This document shows, one piece after another, positions 56,330 through 64,000 of a DNA stretch of 64,000 bases (position 1 is the stretch's first letter; the number at the start of each line of letters is the position of its first letter). A model generated the notes under the pieces. That model was not told where the DNA came from, ran no database searches, and saw only the letters and a list, made by a program, of their open reading frames with translations. Both the position numbers and the translations under genes were made by a program. Origin of the DNA: Campylobacterales bacterium (GTDB lineage Bacteria > Campylobacterota > Campylobacteria > Campylobacterales > QNZT01); NCBI GenBank assembly GCA_024278835.1, contig JAJRSK010000033.1:1-64000 (forward strand). Reading direction: 5' to 3'.

Positions 56330-58219
56330 TTTCTAAGCTACCTACTCGGCAGTTTACATGTGTGCCTTGTGGCTTGTAAGCTTTTGTATTTTCTAAGCTA
56401 CCTACTCGGCAGTTTACGGCTTTTTTAAGTTTCGCGGGGGGTAGTATATTTTCTAAGCTACCTACTCGGCAGTTTACTACGCGTACACCCCTTGTAGCTG
56501 TAGCCCCTATTTCTAAGCTACCTACTCGGCAGTTTACTTTTATGACCTTGTAAAGGGGTCAAAATGATCTTTCTAAGCTACCTACTCGGCAGTTTACGTT
56601 GACCCCCCTAACGTTTTTAATTATTAGTTTTTCTAAGCTACCTACTCGGCAGTTTACTGGTAATGCGTGTGTATAGTGTTGATGATGATTTTCTAAGCTA
56701 CCTACTCGGCAGTTTACATAGTTACTCTTTTATCATAGAAGGTCTCTCATTTCTAAGCTACCTACTCGGCAGTTTACTCTCAGGTGGAGACAAGGGGAAA
56801 AAGTATAGCGTTTCTAAGCTACCTACTCGGCAGTTTACTATACGAGGTTAGTCGGTGGGCGGGTACCTATTTTCTAAGCTACCTACTCGGCAGTTTACAA
56901 TATATTAATAGGGGATGGGATTTCAAAGACTTTCTAAGCTACCTACTCGGCAGTTTACCTACTGCTACTGTTGGAGTTGTCTCTACTGTTTTTCTAAGCT
57001 ACCTACTCGGCAGTTTACTTTACAGCGGTCACGGCTATCGCTCCAGACAATTTCTAAGCTACCTACTCGGCAGTTTACGCGTCAATGATAGCCCGTGCTT
57101 TGTCATCTTTTTTCTAAGCTACCTACTCGGCAGTTTACAGTATCTTCAAAAAATCCAGACATTGAAGCGTTTTCTAAGCTACCTACTCGGCAGTTTACTG
57201 ATAGGCGTGTATTCTACGTGCTTTGTTGCTTTCTAAGCTACCTACTCGGCAGTTTACAAAATGTGTGAAGTATGTGGAGAAGAAATAGCTTTCTAAGCTA
57301 CCTACTCGGCAGTTTACAGTAAACAATACACAGCAGATAACACAAATCAATTTCTAAGCTACCTACTCGGCAGTTTACATCTTCACCTCTATCTTTTTAT
57401 ATATTATATGTTTCTAAGCTACCTACTCGGCAGTTTACTTTTTCTTCCATATCCTTGATAAGTTTTTCCATTTCTAAGCTACCTACTCGGCAGTTTACTT
57501 TGCAAAAGGGTACAAAAATCTTTTAGTAGATTTCTAAGCTACCTACTCGGCAGTTTACAAAAAATCAAAATAGGCATCCCTTTTAAAAAGTTTTCTAAGC
57601 TACCTACTCGGCAGTTTACTAAAGGATTTTGGTTTTAGTCTAAAGTGTGATTTTCTAAGCTACCTACTCGGCAGTTTACCAGCTACTTCGAAATAAAAGC
57701 AAGTGAGATAATTTCTAAGCTACCTACTCGGCAGTTTACTAGCCATAGGCGATAGAGTTATTAAAGTACAATTTCTAAGCTACCTACTCGGCAGTTTACT
57801 AAACAATAGAAAGCTAGCAAGGCTCGTGCAGTTTCTAAGCTACCTACTCGGCAGTTTACTTTTGGTTTTTTCTTTTCTTTTTTGTTCACTATTTCTAAGC
57901 TACCTACTCGGCAGTTTACACGTGGGAAAAGATATGCGTATTTGAGGGAGATTTCTAAGCTACCTACTCGGCAGTTTACAGTCATAGAGGGGATATAATG
58001 CCTAAAGTATGTTTCTAAGCTACCTACTCGGCAGTTTACAGCATTGCTTCATTTGTAGGCTCAATTCCGTATTTCTAAGCTACCTACTCGGCAGTTTACT
58101 TCGCTTGAATTTCTTTTTTACTCTTTATTTTTTTCTAAGCTACCTACTCGGCAGTTTACCTGGTGCTTTGAGGCTTATAAAAGACTTGGATTTTCTAAGC
58201 TACCTACTCGGCAGTTTAC
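56330..58219 (-). CRISPR. Type I-F CRISPR array: 32 repeats of 28 bp, 31 spacers (31-33 nt); transcribed-strand repeat GTAAACTGCCGAGTAGGTAGCTTAGAAA
   Basis: Repeat TTTCTAAGCTACCTACTCGGCAGTTTAC at 56330, 56390 ... 58192, read as identical throughout; I-F-type stem CTGCC-GAGTA-GGTAG; cas genes on the same (minus) strand. Confidence 0.99.
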
Positions 58220-58363: not shown

Positions 58364-58798
58364 TCAGATTCTATCTTGCATCTTTTTGTATATCTCTTTT
58401 AAATTTTCATAAACTTCTATAGCAAGTACGATAGATTCTATCATCTCATCTTCATTGTCTGGGTATTCATGTGTGAGTGTATTTCTTAGTTTTCTATAAT
58501 CTATCCATGTATCACTACTATCTAACAACTCTAATTTTTCTAGCTTATGTAACACATCTATCAAAGACATGCTACTTTTATACTCTTGTAACTCTTTTAG
58601 TACGAAGGGGAAGAACTTCTCTCCCATCTTATCTTGAATCTTGGTAAATCGATAGATAAAAAAATCAATAGTTTTAATCTTTTCAATCTCTTGAAAATCA
58701 CTTTCATGCAAAGGAAGATAACTTTTAAGCTCTGGCAAAATCGCATCAATCCTATCAAAATGTACATCAAGCTCTTTTCTAACTTGTTCAAGTGTCAT
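58364..58798 (-). CDS. HEPN domain protein (HepT-like toxin)
   Basis: 144 aa with WIDYRKLRNTLTHEYPDNEDEMIE (RxxxxH HEPN motif), overlapping the MNT gene. Confidence 0.85.
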   Translation of the reverse strand: MTLEQVRKELDVHFDRIDAILPELKSYLPLHESDFQEIEKIKTIDFFIYRFTKIQDKMGEKFFPFVLKELQEYKSSMSLIDVLHKLEKLELLDSSDTWIDYRKLRNTLTHEYPDNEDEMIESIVLAIEVYENLKEIYKKMQDRI

Positions 58799-59091
58799 AG
58801 TACAATACCCTCTTTTTTAGCAATTTCAAATATCTCTTTACTCTTTGTGCCATTATCCACAAGCAAATCAACCTTTTGCTCACCAAAAAGCTTCTCAAAC
58901 TCTCTTAAAAAAACTATCTTAGCGTTTAAAATCCCCTCTTTTTTATCTGTTTGGATATAAATGTCTATATCTCCACCCTTTTGAGTAACATCAGCACGAG
59001 AACCAAATATCATCACCTTAGAACTATTAAAAAGTTCCTTTGCAAGGTGCTTTATAGTCTGCTGTTGTTGCTCTTTTAATCGTATCATCAT
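58795..59091 (-). CDS. MNT-type nucleotidyltransferase (MntA-like antitoxin)
   Basis: KVMIFGSRADVTQKGGDIDIYIQTD (GSx10DxD minimal NTase). Confidence 0.88.
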   Translation of the reverse strand: MMIRLKEQQQQTIKHLAKELFNSSKVMIFGSRADVTQKGGDIDIYIQTDKKEGILNAKIVFLREFEKLFGEQKVDLLVDNGTKSKEIFEIAKKEGIVL

Positions 59092-59125: not shown

Positions 59126-59701
59126 TTAAAACCATGGAACGGTTGCAGTTTTGCTAAGACCGTATGTTGAAAATTTACCATCTTTAAACTCGCTTTTTAT
59201 AGTTTTCTCTATAAAAATTTTCATCTGATTACCTGTTGACATACTCTCCATCATGATAAAAGGTAGTTTTGTTTCAGCTTCTTTAAAATTTTCATAATTT
59301 TTTAAAGCTTCTTCAAAACTGATACCTTTTCTTTTTGCTTGTCGTCGTGCTAGCCTTTCTACATTTGTTTTAAATTGTTTTCTGCTAAAAGTTACATACT
59401 CTGATATATCACACGGAACATTTTGTATCTCTGAAATTATCAAATAATCTACTATTTTACCTAACCAATGGCTTAATTTTAAATCTTCTAAATCCTCCTT
59501 TGTAAAACCAAAGAGCCTAAGTGTATCTCCCAAAAATCTATCACTAGAATATTTTGGGAATGATACTCCTATAGAGACTAAATTGTCCTCATTTTTGACT
59601 TCAACCAAAGCCAAATGAATTTGTTTATAAAGTTTTTTCCAGAGAAAACCTAGTGCTATCTCACTATCTGGCATGAGTTTTATCTCTATATAATATTTCA
59701 T
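59126..59701 (-). CDS. cas6f: CRISPR endoribonuclease Cas6f/Csy4
   Basis: MKYYIEIKLMPDSEIALGFLWKKLYKQIHLALV, VSFPKYSSDRFLGDTLRLFG; position last in csy operon. Confidence 0.93.
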   Translation of the reverse strand: MKYYIEIKLMPDSEIALGFLWKKLYKQIHLALVEVKNEDNLVSIGVSFPKYSSDRFLGDTLRLFGFTKEDLEDLKLSHWLGKIVDYLIISEIQNVPCDISEYVTFSRKQFKTNVERLARRQAKRKGISFEEALKNYENFKEAETKLPFIMMESMSTGNQMKIFIEKTIKSEFKDGKFSTYGLSKTATVPWF

Positions 59702-59707
59702 AATCTA

Positions 59708-60736
59708 CTACTTATCACTCTCACCAAATACACCACCACGAACAAGCACAGCCATCACATAATGTTCATCTTCAACACAATCTAGTTGTTCTCCTTTTGC
59801 AAACTTATCAAAAAAAGTATAAAAATCTTTTTTATCTTTAGGAGTTCTGTAAGCTTTACCCATGTTAGTAACAGCACCGTAAGGCTCTATTGCTATAGCA
59901 CCTACACCTGATGGTGAATCAAACTCAGGATACCATGTATCTATACTTCTTAAAGCATTGCCTATCTTTTGTGAGTGCATTGCAGCAATATTGTTTACAT
60001 GGTACAAAATCTTACTTTTTTTACTCTGTCCCTTATCTAACACAAGCTCTTCGCTAGGATAAACTTCTTGTGCTTTTCCAACTTTTGCAAAACAAGTGAT
60101 TTCCAACATCAAAAAATCATCTTCACTAGCCAGAGCATCTGCGATTTTTTCTCCCAAATCTATAACATTTTTATCATCACTTTTCATAGATCTTATATTG
60201 AAACTTTTTGAATCAAAAACAAAAATTTTATCTGACAATAAATCTTTAACACGCACTTCAATCGACTCAGCACCTACTCTATTTCGCCATAAAAATCGTG
60301 CATTTGCAATATTTAAAGCATATCTTAAACCCAATTCTTTAAACTGCTCTTTTTCTATATATCCACTAACCGCTTCTTGATAAGTTTCTAAAAACGCCGC
60401 ACTGTTACAAGCTGAAGGTTTTTTAATACCACCCAATACTTTTAGTGTAAACTGCAATACTAAAGTATCATGTTCAGGTGACAAAGCACAACTATCTACT
60501 GTCTGAGGGTTTGCTTTTTCTACTTCTGCGTTAAGTTTTACAGGGTCATTTTTGATAGCTGGTTTTAAGCGATTTGATATTGTTCCCCTTACTGATTTTT
60601 CTACCAACTTTAAAGCTATTTTACTATCTTTTTTGTTATCCCATGTAGTTCCATACATATATCCATCAGAAGGTACTAATTTTTTTTCAAATGCTAAAAC
60701 TGATGCTACTTTATTGCTATTTTTCTCTTTTGCCAT
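59708..60736 (-). CDS. csy3: Type I-F Cas7f (Csy3)
   Basis: SVLAFEKKLVPSDGYMYGTTWDNK, LNIANARFLWRNRVGAESIEV. Confidence 0.95.
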   Translation of the reverse strand: MAKEKNSNKVASVLAFEKKLVPSDGYMYGTTWDNKKDSKIALKLVEKSVRGTISNRLKPAIKNDPVKLNAEVEKANPQTVDSCALSPEHDTLVLQFTLKVLGGIKKPSACNSAAFLETYQEAVSGYIEKEQFKELGLRYALNIANARFLWRNRVGAESIEVRVKDLLSDKIFVFDSKSFNIRSMKSDDKNVIDLGEKIADALASEDDFLMLEITCFAKVGKAQEVYPSEELVLDKGQSKKSKILYHVNNIAAMHSQKIGNALRSIDTWYPEFDSPSGVGAIAIEPYGAVTNMGKAYRTPKDKKDFYTFFDKFAKGEQLDCVEDEHYVMAVLVRGGVFGESDK

Positions 60737-60747
60737 AATATTTCCTT

Positions 60748-61635
60748 TTATCTATTTTTATTTTGTTCGCATAGGTATAATCCATGCTTTTTGTCTGCAT
60801 TATAATGCCACAGTATCTCGTCTAAAGATTCTATTTTATATGGCATGATAAATTCTCCCAAAGTTACCACACTCTCTGCGAAACGGTGTGGCACATCTGG
60901 ATCTCTTTGATTTTTTGCTTTTCCTAACCCAGAAATAGCTTGAAAACCTGTGGCTATTGGCACTATCCAACCTGCTGTTTTTCGTTTGCTTGTCCATAAC
61001 ACTTTATCTTCATCATCTTTTTCACAAGAATGGTTAATTGTCACATATTCCAAAAGAGCATCCATAGCATCCAAACCTCTATCCATAGCTTCCATCATAA
61101 GATCTCTTCGCTCCACAATGGCATAACCAGGCATAAGTTTTCGACGAACACGAGCTATGTCATCCTCTTCTTCATCTTCAACTCTTTCTATGAACGGTTT
61201 TCTCAGTTTGAAAATATCTCCACCTGCTATCTTCATTCTTGACTTTAGATGATATGCCACTCTTTCTAGTAACTTTTCTTCATCGCGTTTATGAAGTTCT
61301 GAAAATTCAATAACCAAAGAAATATCAAGATGTATTCTAGCTTCCTCTATAAAGGCAGGTCGTTTGCCATCTTTGTCTACAGGATTACTTGTGCCAATAA
61401 TAGAGTTTACATAATCTCCAACTCCTTTATGCACTTGTAAATCAGCCTTATGACTCACAACACCTATCGCATTAAACTTCAAATTTGACAAACCATCACT
61501 ATTAAGCTTCCGTTGTAGAGCATGGACAGCACCTAACCATGCAGTCATGGCAGGAAATCCTATAGTAAAAGAACTAGAAAGTGCATTTGCATTGTGTACC
61601 TCTATATGAGGTATTATCAAAATCATCTTTATCAT
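60748..61635 (-). CDS. csy2: Type I-F Cas5f (Csy2)
   Basis: IIPHIEVHNANALSSSFTIGFPAMTAWLGAVHALQRKL. Confidence 0.94.
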   Translation of the reverse strand: MIKMILIIPHIEVHNANALSSSFTIGFPAMTAWLGAVHALQRKLNSDGLSNLKFNAIGVVSHKADLQVHKGVGDYVNSIIGTSNPVDKDGKRPAFIEEARIHLDISLVIEFSELHKRDEEKLLERVAYHLKSRMKIAGGDIFKLRKPFIERVEDEEEDDIARVRRKLMPGYAIVERRDLMMEAMDRGLDAMDALLEYVTINHSCEKDDEDKVLWTSKRKTAGWIVPIATGFQAISGLGKAKNQRDPDVPHRFAESVVTLGEFIMPYKIESLDEILWHYNADKKHGLYLCEQNKNR

Positions 61636-62915
61636 CGTAGTACCTCCTTATATTTTTCAAGAAGTGCCAACAGATGCAAATATTCAGATTTTCCAAATTT
61701 AATATACTCTTTCTTCCCTATAACTTTTTTATACCCCACATCAATGATCCATCGTGCTATCTCTTTCATTATCTTATCTAGCCATTCATCATCTTTTTCT
61801 CTCTCCATCTGATAATGTTCATTATCAATCAACCATACTTTTTGATGATATTTTAGTTTGGAGTTTTTCTCATAATACTGTTCTTTAGAAACACTTCGTA
61901 TCGCCCACATTTTATCAATGATTCTATCTATGATTTCCCCATAACGATAATCTCTGCCCTCTCGGATATTAATATTGTTATAATTTGTTTTATAGATGTT
62001 ATCCAAAGCAAAAAAAGTCTCTTTAAACTCCCAAATAGATATGGAATTTTTAAAAAAGTCTATTTTGGGAAAATGAATTTCTCTTTTCTCTAAAGTAGGT
62101 GGCATAGAATAAATAAGTTGTGCTTTCCCTCCATTTCGGGAGTTTAATACAGAGATATTTTGAGGTTTAGTTCCTCCATAGCCGATGGTAGTGAGATTAA
62201 AAATCTCTCGATACCCATCCTCTGAAAATTTATTATTTTTTTTGCTATTTCGTAATGTTTTTAAATGTTCTTTCTCCTCTTCATCTTCTCCAAATCGTAT
62301 CTTATTGAGTCGTTTTCTTAGCTCAAAAAGCATCCCCGAATTTGTCAAAATAGAGAGTTGATGGTAACTATCTTCCACAGGAAAATAGACCTGCTTTATC
62401 TTTGAGCTTGTTACCATCTCATTAGAAGTTGAAATCATTGCCAAAAACTCATCTCGCAATACATCATAAGGCTTAGTACTTATTGTCAAAAGAGAGATTG
62501 CTAATGGAGTCTCTTTTTGTATGTGCTCTATCAACTGTTGACCATCAGGCATAAGTAGTGTTAAAAATTTATGCACATCTAACGCTGCAGCATTACCCAA
62601 AGCATCACTAGGAACTCTTACATTTCCAGTTCGTAAAAAGCCATCATCACTTTGCTCCACCTTCGCTATAATGGAAGTGACATAACCATTTTTATTTTTT
62701 CTAGCACTTGGATGAGAAAAAGTACAAGGATGTGTTGCTATTGAGATTTGCTTAGCTCTTTTTGAAGCATTGGGCAACCAAATTTCTCTTGAAAACTCTC
62801 TAACAGCCTTTTGATGTAACTCTAAAATCTCCTCCTCATTCATTGAAGATTTACGATTCTTTTTTATCCAAGCCTCTTTTCTTTCATCAAAAAACTTGGA
62901 TATTATCTCATTCAT
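61632..62915 (-). CDS. csy1: Type I-F Cas8f (Csy1); start placed at internal ATG (MNEIISKFFDERKEAW), track ORF begins at 62966
   Basis: ATHPCTFSHPSARKNKNGYVTSIIAKVEQSDDGFLRTGNVRVPSDALGNAAALDVHKFLTLLMPDG; SD AAGGGAGAA precedes the internal ATG. Confidence 0.92.
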   Translation of the reverse strand: MNEIISKFFDERKEAWIKKNRKSSMNEEEILELHQKAVREFSREIWLPNASKRAKQISIATHPCTFSHPSARKNKNGYVTSIIAKVEQSDDGFLRTGNVRVPSDALGNAAALDVHKFLTLLMPDGQQLIEHIQKETPLAISLLTISTKPYDVLRDEFLAMISTSNEMVTSSKIKQVYFPVEDSYHQLSILTNSGMLFELRKRLNKIRFGEDEEEKEHLKTLRNSKKNNKFSEDGYREIFNLTTIGYGGTKPQNISVLNSRNGGKAQLIYSMPPTLEKREIHFPKIDFFKNSISIWEFKETFFALDNIYKTNYNNINIREGRDYRYGEIIDRIIDKMWAIRSVSKEQYYEKNSKLKYHQKVWLIDNEHYQMEREKDDEWLDKIMKEIARWIIDVGYKKVIGKKEYIKFGKSEYLHLLALLEKYKEVLR

Positions 62916-63076
62916 ACTTATTGTTCTCCCTTTGACATATTTTGAATTATATGGTATAATAGCCATGACAGAGTTATCTCTGCAACTAAAACCATCGGAG
63001 TTCGTTTCGGACGTTAAGCTAGGGATTATCTAGGTAAAGCATTAGCAAACACCCGTAAAATTGAGTAGTTTTTGGT

Positions 63077-63490
63077 CTACTCATCTTTCTCAAAAATCGT
63101 TTTTAACTCTAATCTTTTATCCTTATAAATTCTTAGTTTTACCAGCTTGATAGTCTTGTTATCATACTTTTTATAAAATTCCAAACTTACCAAACTAGCC
63201 CCAGTTTTACTATCTTTTGTGATATTTTTCCTGACATCTAAAAAACTCTCTATAATCTCTGGTATCTCACAAATATAAAAAATATCATTAGGATGTCCTC
63301 TCCTTACATGTCTAACACTATGACTACTTATAACACCCAAATAACCACCTAAGTTTATATGTAATCTTTTTTGCACTCTTTGGATAGTTATTTCAGAGAT
63401 TAAAAAAGACAACTCTTCGTTGAACTGTCTATTTTCTATAGAGGTCTTAACAAAAAGACAAATCTCTTCTCGTTTTAACTTTGATGACAA
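63077..63490 (-). CDS. 137-aa candidate BECR-fold (PBECR-like) RNase toxin, TTG start
   Basis: GVISSHSVRHVRRGHPNDIFYICEIPEIIESF resembles the phage Barnase/EndoU/colicin/RelE-like nuclease core (His...IPEII); SD AAGGAG followed by TAAC then TTG. Confidence 0.55.
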   Translation of the reverse strand: MSSKLKREEICLFVKTSIENRQFNEELSFLISEITIQRVQKRLHINLGGYLGVISSHSVRHVRRGHPNDIFYICEIPEIIESFLDVRKNITKDSKTGASLVSLEFYKKYDNKTIKLVKLRIYKDKRLELKTIFEKDE

Positions 63491-63502
63491 GTTACTCCTT
63501 TT

Positions 63503-63578
63503 ACTTTACGCTACCTATTCGACAGTTTACCTCTAATAACCATTTAAACCTTTCTAAGATACTTATTCAGCATTAATA
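63503..63578 (-). CRISPR. Degenerate two-repeat mini-CRISPR (psi-repeat 63551-63578, 20-nt spacer 63531-63550, psi-repeat 63503-63530)
   Basis: By hand alignment 19/28 and 22/28 identities to the array repeat; same orientation; both stems still pair. Confidence 0.85.
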
Positions 63579-63590
63579 ACCATTTAAACA
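63571..63590 (-). repeat. Self-protospacer for the mini-spacer, preceded by CC PAM (63591-63592)
   Basis: TGTTTAAATGGTTATTAATG vs spacer GGTTTAAATGGTTATTAGAG (17/20). Confidence 0.75.
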
Positions 63591-63597
63591 GGATAAT

Positions 63598-63603
63598 ATT
63601 ATA
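63598..63603 (-). promoter_or_regulatory. -10 element TATAAT upstream of mini-CRISPR/toxin
   Basis: Perfect TATAAT on the minus strand, predicted start site about 63591; no convincing -35. Confidence 0.6.
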
Positions 63604-63608
63604 TAATC

Positions 63609-64000
63609 TTAAACCTTAACTATTCCAAACTGATCACTATACTCATACGAACTATCTTCATAGTAGCCAAAACTCAACTCCCCATACTTTATAGAAATAG
63701 CTCTTTTAGATTTATCGAACTTTTCTACCAAAGTATTATAGTCTCGTTTCAACCATAACCCTTTTTCCACCTCATCATCAATCTCTATCTTATTTATCTG
63801 TAAAATCTCTTCTCTTTTTATGATATTATCATATCCCTCTATTTCACAAAACGAATAGGCTTTATCATCTTCATCATAAACCAAAAAAACTTTTTGTGTT
63901 GGTTCACTCTCTCTAAAAGGGTGTAAGTATTGTGGGTGTGCTGTCAAAAACCAATTCTCATCTAAGTAGCCTTGCAAACCTGTTGCTCCCTTTTTATCAT
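63609..64000 (-). CDS. C-terminal part of a longer protein open to the right edge; probably Cas2-3 (type I-F Cas3)
   Basis: Frame is open upstream of the track TTG (…DKKGATGLQGYLDENWFLTAHPQYLHPFRESEPTQKVFLVYDEDD…); assigned mainly from conserved order cas1-cas2/3-csy1. Confidence 0.5.
   Translation of the reverse strand, partial: DKKGATGLQGYLDENWFLTAHPQYLHPFRESEPTQKVFLVYDEDDKAYSFCEIEGYDNIIKREEILQINKIEIDDEVEKGLWLKRDYNTLVEKFDKSKRAISIKYGELSFGYYEDSSYEYSDQFGIVKV

Follow-up and report, generated by a model that had tools for sequence, protein, structure and literature searches.

Among the systems in which a CRISPR effector serves as a repressor, CrePA was reportedly described by Shu et al. (2025, Nat Chem Biol) and CreR, again reportedly, by Liu et al. 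(2023, Cell Host Microbe); furthermore, self-repression has been reported for the CreA of H. hubeiense. In the type I-F CreTA module of Acinetobacter the toxin is repressed by the Csy complex, and experimental tests found guide positions 2-5, 7-9 and 13-17 to be essential and position 1 to be partly needed (PMC10097628). The PBECR3 family is, in the available part of its description, one of BECR-fold RNases with a helix His and a C-terminal Thr or Ser, and the same part contains the speculation that some PBECRs attack CRISPR RNAs (PMC5512222). We here analyze a stretch of 64,000 nucleotides from a Campylobacterales bacterium (contig JAJRSK010000033.1, positions 1 to 64,000; henceforth the window), in which a mini-CRISPR, comprising two degenerate repeats around a short pseudo-spacer, and a gene for a PBECR3 domain protein are embedded between the cas2-3 and csy1 genes of a type I-F1 CRISPR-Cas locus. 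Judging from the sequence, we propose that this mini-CRISPR is probably a creA-type guide gene of a CRISPR-repressed PBECR3 toxin module.

The degenerate repeats are named in transcription order, as in the literature: psiR1 (63551..63578) is thus psi-repeat 2, and psiR2 (63503..63530) psi-repeat 1, of an earlier sequence-only reading of this DNA; all features are on the minus strand unless stated otherwise. psiR1 (TATTAATGCTGAATAAGTATCTTAGAAA) is identical to the array repeat (GTAAACTGCCGAGTAGGTAGCTTAGAAA) at 19/28 positions and would supply the 5' handle CTTAGAAA, which it retains at 8/8 positions, the remaining 20 nucleotides showing 11/20 identities. psiR2 (GTAAACTGTCGAATAGGTAGCGTAAAGT), which would supply the 3' hairpin, is identical at 22/28 positions, with 4/8 in the handle and 18/20 beyond it. 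Both retain all five stem pairs (A-U, U-A, G.U, C-G and U-A in psiR1; C-G, U-A, G.U, U.G and C-G in psiR2), and at the base of the stem psiR2 keeps C6-G20 and psiR1 has A6-U20. The two lie 48 nucleotides apart from start to start, and nothing else in the 64 kb outside the array matches the repeat as well; psiR1 is, moreover, the only site there that combines a 5/5 stem with the exact handle. Our recomputation agrees with the sequence-only reading on the coordinates, the sequences, the retention of all five pairs in both psi-repeats and a handle that is exact in one of them and decayed in the other; that reading described the psi-repeats rightly but mentioned neither the guide target nor the toxin gene nor the antisense RNA.

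The psi-spacer between the two repeats (GGTTTAAATGGTTATTAGAG, 20 nucleotides, 63531..63550) has a predicted target, or protospacer, at 63571..63590, which is identical to it at 17/20 positions (mismatches at 1, 18 and 19), overlaps the first eight nucleotides of psiR1 and adjoins a CC (63591..63592), the protospacer-adjacent motif (PAM) of type I-F (PMC10097628). The window contains two exact copies of the 16-mer GTTTAAATGGTTATTA and no others, one as psi-spacer positions 2-17 and one, in the same register behind the CC, upstream of psiR1, and all the positions that are essential in the Acinetobacter module match. When the 300 nucleotides upstream were shuffled 5000 times with dinucleotides preserved, the best CC-flanked match was 16/20, seen once, and the target is the only perfect site in the genome. 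It spans the presumed start of the transcript, shortly after a TATAAT (63598..63603) that we predict from sequence to be the -10 element of the mini-CRISPR/toxin transcript; as in creA modules, the guide has PAM-flanked partial complementarity to the promoter or leader of a toxin gene. By analogy, the position of the target at the module's own leader and the co-directional toxin gene fit self-repression of the kind reported for the H. hubeiense CreA.

In the mechanism that we propose, a transcript from near 63591 would carry psiR1, the psi-spacer and psiR2, with the mRNA of the PBECR3 toxin behind them, and Cas6f would release from it a CRISPR RNA (crRNA)-like molecule of ~48 nucleotides, 5'-CTTAGAAA-GGTTTAAATGGTTATTAGAG-GTAAACTGTCGAATAGGTAG-3', the processed guide RNA being expected to begin CTTAGAAAGGTTTAAATGG. 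Loaded with this guide, the Csy complex would occupy the CC-flanked site where the transcript itself begins and keep both the mini-CRISPR and the toxin gene from being transcribed, in a negative feedback, whereas loss or inhibition of Cas would free the toxin. An opposite-strand pseudoknot RNA would be a second, Cas-independent antitoxin.

That such elements form a genuine class is apparent from other type I-F loci. A scan with Csy3 gave 80 named loci, in 26 of which the cas3-csy1 gap holds a guide that has a CC-flanked target and is bracketed by two degenerate repeats, the selection demanding at least 11 matches within guide positions 1-17 and favouring no position. Guide-target mismatches in these comparators are found at position 6 in 15/26, at position 12 in 16/26 and at position 18 in 18/24, and at any other position up to 15 in 0-1 (Fisher p 4e-22 for the concentration at 6/12/18). 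This footprint is what would be expected if each sixth nucleotide of a guide bound by Cascade were left unpaired, and it indicates that such elements are a real class acting by crRNA-like pairing. The psi-spacer is 18-20 nucleotides long in 15 of the 26, and psiR1 surpasses psiR2 in handle identity (7.7 versus 4.1 of 8) and falls behind it over the first 20 nucleotides (12.8 versus 16.8 of 20). This asymmetry, already published as a creA property (PMC8501985, PMC9458426), had been ascribed by the sequence-only reading to selection for one mini-crRNA, a view strengthened by its recurrence in these 26 other I-F mini-CRISPRs. The condition that reading had named as refuting a maintained stem, unpaired stems in orthologues, did not arise: among 22 psiR1s, 98.2% of the stem cells are paired, a value that 0/500 shuffles reach, and pairs 8-18 and 10-16 show compensatory changes.

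When 399 genomes of the order were searched with a profile, three further PBECR3 genes turned up at cas loci (in genomes G415, G506 and G402), and all four CRISPR-linked toxins group in a single clade (support 91/90). The G415 locus is of type I-F2 (Cas1fv, Cas3fv, Cas7fv, Cas5fv and Cas6f) and is arranged as cas1, psiR1 (CAATACTACTGAGCAAGTAGCTTGGAAA), a 20-nucleotide guide, psiR2, PBECR3, the RNA and cas2-3, with a repeat spacing of 48 nucleotides. Its psiR1 handle CTTGGAAA is close to the local repeat handle CTTGGAAG and unlike that of the window, and its guide, unrelated to the window guide, agrees with a CC-flanked site in a promoter at 12/15 paired positions; this target lies on the opposite strand beside a TATAAT, with positions 6 and 12 mismatched, and 4/5000 shuffles are as good. 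The first 20 nucleotides of the window psiR2 are closer to the G415 array repeat (19/20) than to that of their own array (18/20), which may explain the GAATA loop common to both window psi-repeats. In G506 (L164) an intact toxin and RNA are flanked by cas1 and a cas2-3 stub of ~18 codons, and in G402 (L165) they lie beside a similar stub on a short contig without cas1; a mini-CRISPR was seen at neither locus. Neither PBECR3, searched with BLAST, nor the antisense RNA, searched with its model, was found in the 80 other I-F loci.

The toxin gene of the window (63077..63490) has a TTG start and a ribosome-binding site AAAAGGAG at 63495-63502, directly after psiR2, and encodes a protein of 137 amino acids that matches Pfam PF18812 (PBECR3) with E 6.7e-7 and 29.7 bits; its three CRISPR-linked homologues score above the Pfam cut-off. 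H61, H66 and T131 are invariant in the window protein and in seven homologues with 31-40% identity to it (alignment A1), so that both the helix His and the C-terminal Thr-Ser of the PBECR3 active site are accounted for. On this basis the first gene downstream of the mini-CRISPR is likely to encode an RNase toxin. Pfam detected PBECR3 only and no KilA-N domain in it, PADLOC and PHROGs returned no match, and a profile search of the PDB nothing credible. Relatives were found neither among viral contigs with three queries nor in a phage collection, and plasmids yielded a single decayed copy, in Arcobacter cloacae. At two loci (L016 and L018) non-CRISPR cassettes of PBECR3 and RNA lie behind an open reading frame (ORF) that looks, by eye, like a tyrosine recombinase, a hint of mobility.

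Convergent to the toxin gene, on the plus strand, is a conserved pseudoknotted RNA of 97 nucleotides (62987..63083; 111 bits with model R1), a candidate RNA antitoxin, behind a promoter (TTGACA-17-TATAAT, 62932..62960, plus strand) that agrees with sigma-70 at 12/12 positions and has a TG before the -10. The model was built from five rows (A4) of eight, as two rows were misaligned in the eight-RNA alignment A3. Wherever the sequence downstream of a PBECR3 match was available (a nineteenth match ends at a contig edge), the opposite-strand RNA was found close behind the domain (18/18; E 2e-19 to 8e-4), including four long multidomain ORFs of 665-1760 amino acids (L158, L159, L160 and L161), where it lies within the ORF in antisense orientation, immediately behind the PBECR3 domain. 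Copies are present in the window and at L122, L145-L161 and L163, all in Campylobacterales; at L122 and L163 the toxin has decayed but the RNA is intact, and at L128-L131, L135 and L136 orphan RNAs occur with no PBECR3 nearby. The pseudoknot joins ACCR near the 5' end with YGGU in the terminal loop, mostly as ACCA/UGGU and in two cases as ACCG/CGGU, and the terminal stem covaries; in the window the loop of the terminal hairpin TGAGTAG-TTTTTGGT-CTACTCA (63062..63083, plus strand) pairs with an ACCA near the 5' end of the RNA. As single-sequence folding energies are mostly unremarkable, the case for a structured RNA is built on conservation and covariation. Rfam offered no family for it, only array repeats being matched, below threshold. 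Based on its obligate linkage to PBECR3, its persistence beside decayed toxins and the analogy to type III systems, the RNA probably acts as an antitoxin to PBECR3. An identity as an integron attC site was discarded, since the conservation far exceeds short core sites and most copies are preceded by a strong promoter. More tentatively, and with confidence that falls a little short of even, we suggest that PBECR3 and the pseudoknot RNA constitute a hitherto undescribed RNA-antitoxin system captured by I-F1 and I-F2 loci and placed there under a second, Cas-dependent lock, such that Cas loss or inhibition would arm the RNase toxin, its release also depending on the RNA.

Several observations weigh against a creA-type guide gene in the window, the gravest of which concerns the cleavage site. 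G20 is present in 26/26 comparators and replaced by U20 in the window psiR1, the only one in which pair 6-20 at the cleavage base has changed on both sides, from C-G to A-U. In P. aeruginosa Csy4 the Cas6f residues R102 and Q104 read G20 and A19, and these align with R107 and Q109 of the window Cas6f (59126..59701; PF09618). In RacrIF1 the pair-preserving swap C6G/G20C abolishes Cas6f binding (PMC10651486). With the reading residues kept, U20 set against 26/26 G20 and this effect of the swap, psiR1 is predicted to be poorly cut, its Cas6f site being weak or dead if A6-U20 is not tolerated, and present-day guide processing in the window strain may be weak. The claim of compensatory change in the sequence-only reading accordingly survives as to the stem pairs but lacks support as to the Cas6f site of psiR1. 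It is mainly for this reason that we hold the creA-type interpretation no more firmly than as probable. Additional points against it are the mismatch at guide position 1, which is matched in 26/26 comparators; the lack of a clear -35 before the TATAAT, which a 9-of-12 promoter scan did not call; a PBECR3 match just below the Pfam cut-off of 30 bits; and a single-sequence AlphaFold model of the toxin with a pLDDT of 40, too poor for a fold search. To these may be added that the toxicity of the window protein is predicted from its sequence and the antitoxin action of the RNA from its associations.

The altered cleavage site leads directly to the possibility that the mini-CRISPR is a relic, a former creA that lost G20 from psiR1, now yields no mature guide and leaves the toxin held by the pseudoknot RNA alone. 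The 26/26 conservation of G20 and the essentiality of the C6-G20 pair in RacrIF1 (PMC10651486) are in line with this, as is the persistence of toxin and RNA in G506 and G402, whose cas loci are nearly gone and in which CRISPR control would therefore be dispensable. Nevertheless, the exact handle, the five stem pairs, the register and the 16-nucleotide contiguous target match all remain, and the published swap at pair 6-20 is from C-G to G-C rather than to A-U (PMC10651486); on balance we consider a relic unlikely, though it is the alternative we take most seriously. The same pair, kept in psiR2 and lost in psiR1, could be read as the mark of a decoy like RacrIF1, in which an uncut psiR1 and a cut psiR2 would give a 5'-extended RNA that traps Cas6f and Cas7f, as RacrIF1 does (PMC10651486); as this leaves the PAM-flanked target match and the preserved handle unexplained, it appears very improbable.

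The location of the mini-CRISPR suggests yet another role, in that CreR-like mini-CRISPRs with targets at the csy1 promoter occupy the cas3-csy1 gap of many I-F loci; by this account the guide would control the cas operon, as in those neighbours, and the toxin gene would be a mere passenger. In the window, however, the target sits upstream of the mini-CRISPR, the first gene after the mini-CRISPR is that of the toxin, and csy1 is reached only past the toxin gene, a hairpin and a strong convergent promoter. Moreover, the G415 mini-CRISPR also directly precedes PBECR3, at a different place and in a different subtype. Control of the cas operon with the toxin as a passenger therefore seems to us a good deal more doubtful than the relic, although the guide may affect both the toxin and the cas genes. 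Finally, the 16-nucleotide motif is a direct repeat around psiR1 that slippage could yield, but a functionless product of chance or local duplication would have to be squared with the repeat and target statistics, the comparator footprint and the independent G415 case, and we regard it as scarcely credible. We retain the creA-type guide gene as the most probable interpretation.

The complete I-F1 locus, with cas1, cas2-3, csy1-4 and an I-F repeat array all present, is arranged on the minus strand as cas1, cas2-3, the mini-CRISPR and PBECR3 gene, csy1, csy2, csy3, cas6f, a nucleotidyltransferase/HEPN-like pair and the array. Among the ORFs, cas2-3, with cas1 upstream of it, enters the window with its 3' end (63609..64000, stop at 63609) and runs on past the window edge; it is followed by csy1 (cas8f, 61632..62915; PF09611, E 1e-109), csy2 (cas5f, 60748..61635; PF09614), csy3 (cas7f, 59708..60736; PF09615) and, beyond cas6f, the CRISPR array (56330..58219) with 32 exact repeats. 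The locus was not found in the single other genome of the same genus searched, nor was Csy1 in 21 other genomes of the family. The nucleotidyltransferase/HEPN-like gene pair between cas6f and the array (58364-58798 and 58795-59091, minus strand) is a possible toxin-antitoxin, and a further nucleotidyltransferase gene lies upstream of cas1 (L003, 12142-12453). Other cas3-csy1 gaps also hold additional genes: in L111, a mini-CRISPR and, after it on the same strand, a small ORF and a gene for a ParE-like toxin (PF24732), possibly a further CRISPR-repressed toxin; in L108, with cas2-3 and csy1 on either side, a gene for an antitoxin of the HicB family (PF05534, E 5e-19); and in L077, L094, L104 and L105, lying between the mini-CRISPR and csy1, a conserved ORF of ~65-75 amino acids (M..KYV..ET.T), of which the one tested had no Pfam match.

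If our proposal is right, an RNase protein toxin joins the short list of CRISPR-repressed toxins, in an arrangement that spans two I-F subtypes with unrelated guides, is tied to a conserved RNA partner and offers a two-lock model for immune loci that resist loss or disabling by anti-CRISPRs. The 6-nucleotide mismatch footprint furnishes a simple statistical test for calling creA-like guide genes, and the G20 case illustrates that stem covariation by itself is no proof of a Cas6f site. Repeat asymmetry and stem retention are known creA features; as far as we searched, the RNase-type protein toxin, the recurrence in I-F1 and I-F2 and the conserved RNA partner are new relative to the literature, CrePA and CreR being judged through reviews, with overlap with their supplementary lists possible.

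The locus can be set beside several known systems. Like the PBECR domains of polyvalent proteins, its toxin belongs to the same Pfam family and has the helix His and C-terminal Thr, but an accompanying RNA or CRISPR control is not described in the available part of that account (PMC5512222). A pseudoknot RNA beside what is predicted to be an endoribonuclease toxin recalls type III toxin-antitoxins such as ToxIN; in the available portions of their descriptions, however, ToxI consists of repeats and is transcribed together with its toxin, whereas here a single convergent RNA lies downstream of a BECR-fold domain (PMC8860590, PMC5772629). With CreR, so far as the accessible accounts of it extend, the locus shares a mini-CRISPR among cas genes and a PAM-flanked partial target at a promoter, yet CreR represses cas genes and generally has no coupled toxin, whereas here the target and the toxin gene precede csy1. 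Further parallels are with toxins under CRISPR control. In CrePA a protein toxin of phage-type origin is repressed by Cascade with a CreA guide, but in the available extracts CreP has a KilA-N domain and acts on cell division, in place of the BECR-fold RNase domain and conserved RNA seen here (PMC12737573, PMC13131331). The I-F CreTA of Acinetobacter sp. WCHA45, the closest relative with experimental tests, has the same placement in the cas3-csy1 gap, two degenerate repeats with the same asymmetry, a 20-nucleotide psi-spacer and a CC-flanked partial target; its toxin is a small RNA divergent from creA, whereas in the window a gene for a 137-amino-acid protein lies co-directionally downstream (PMC10097628).
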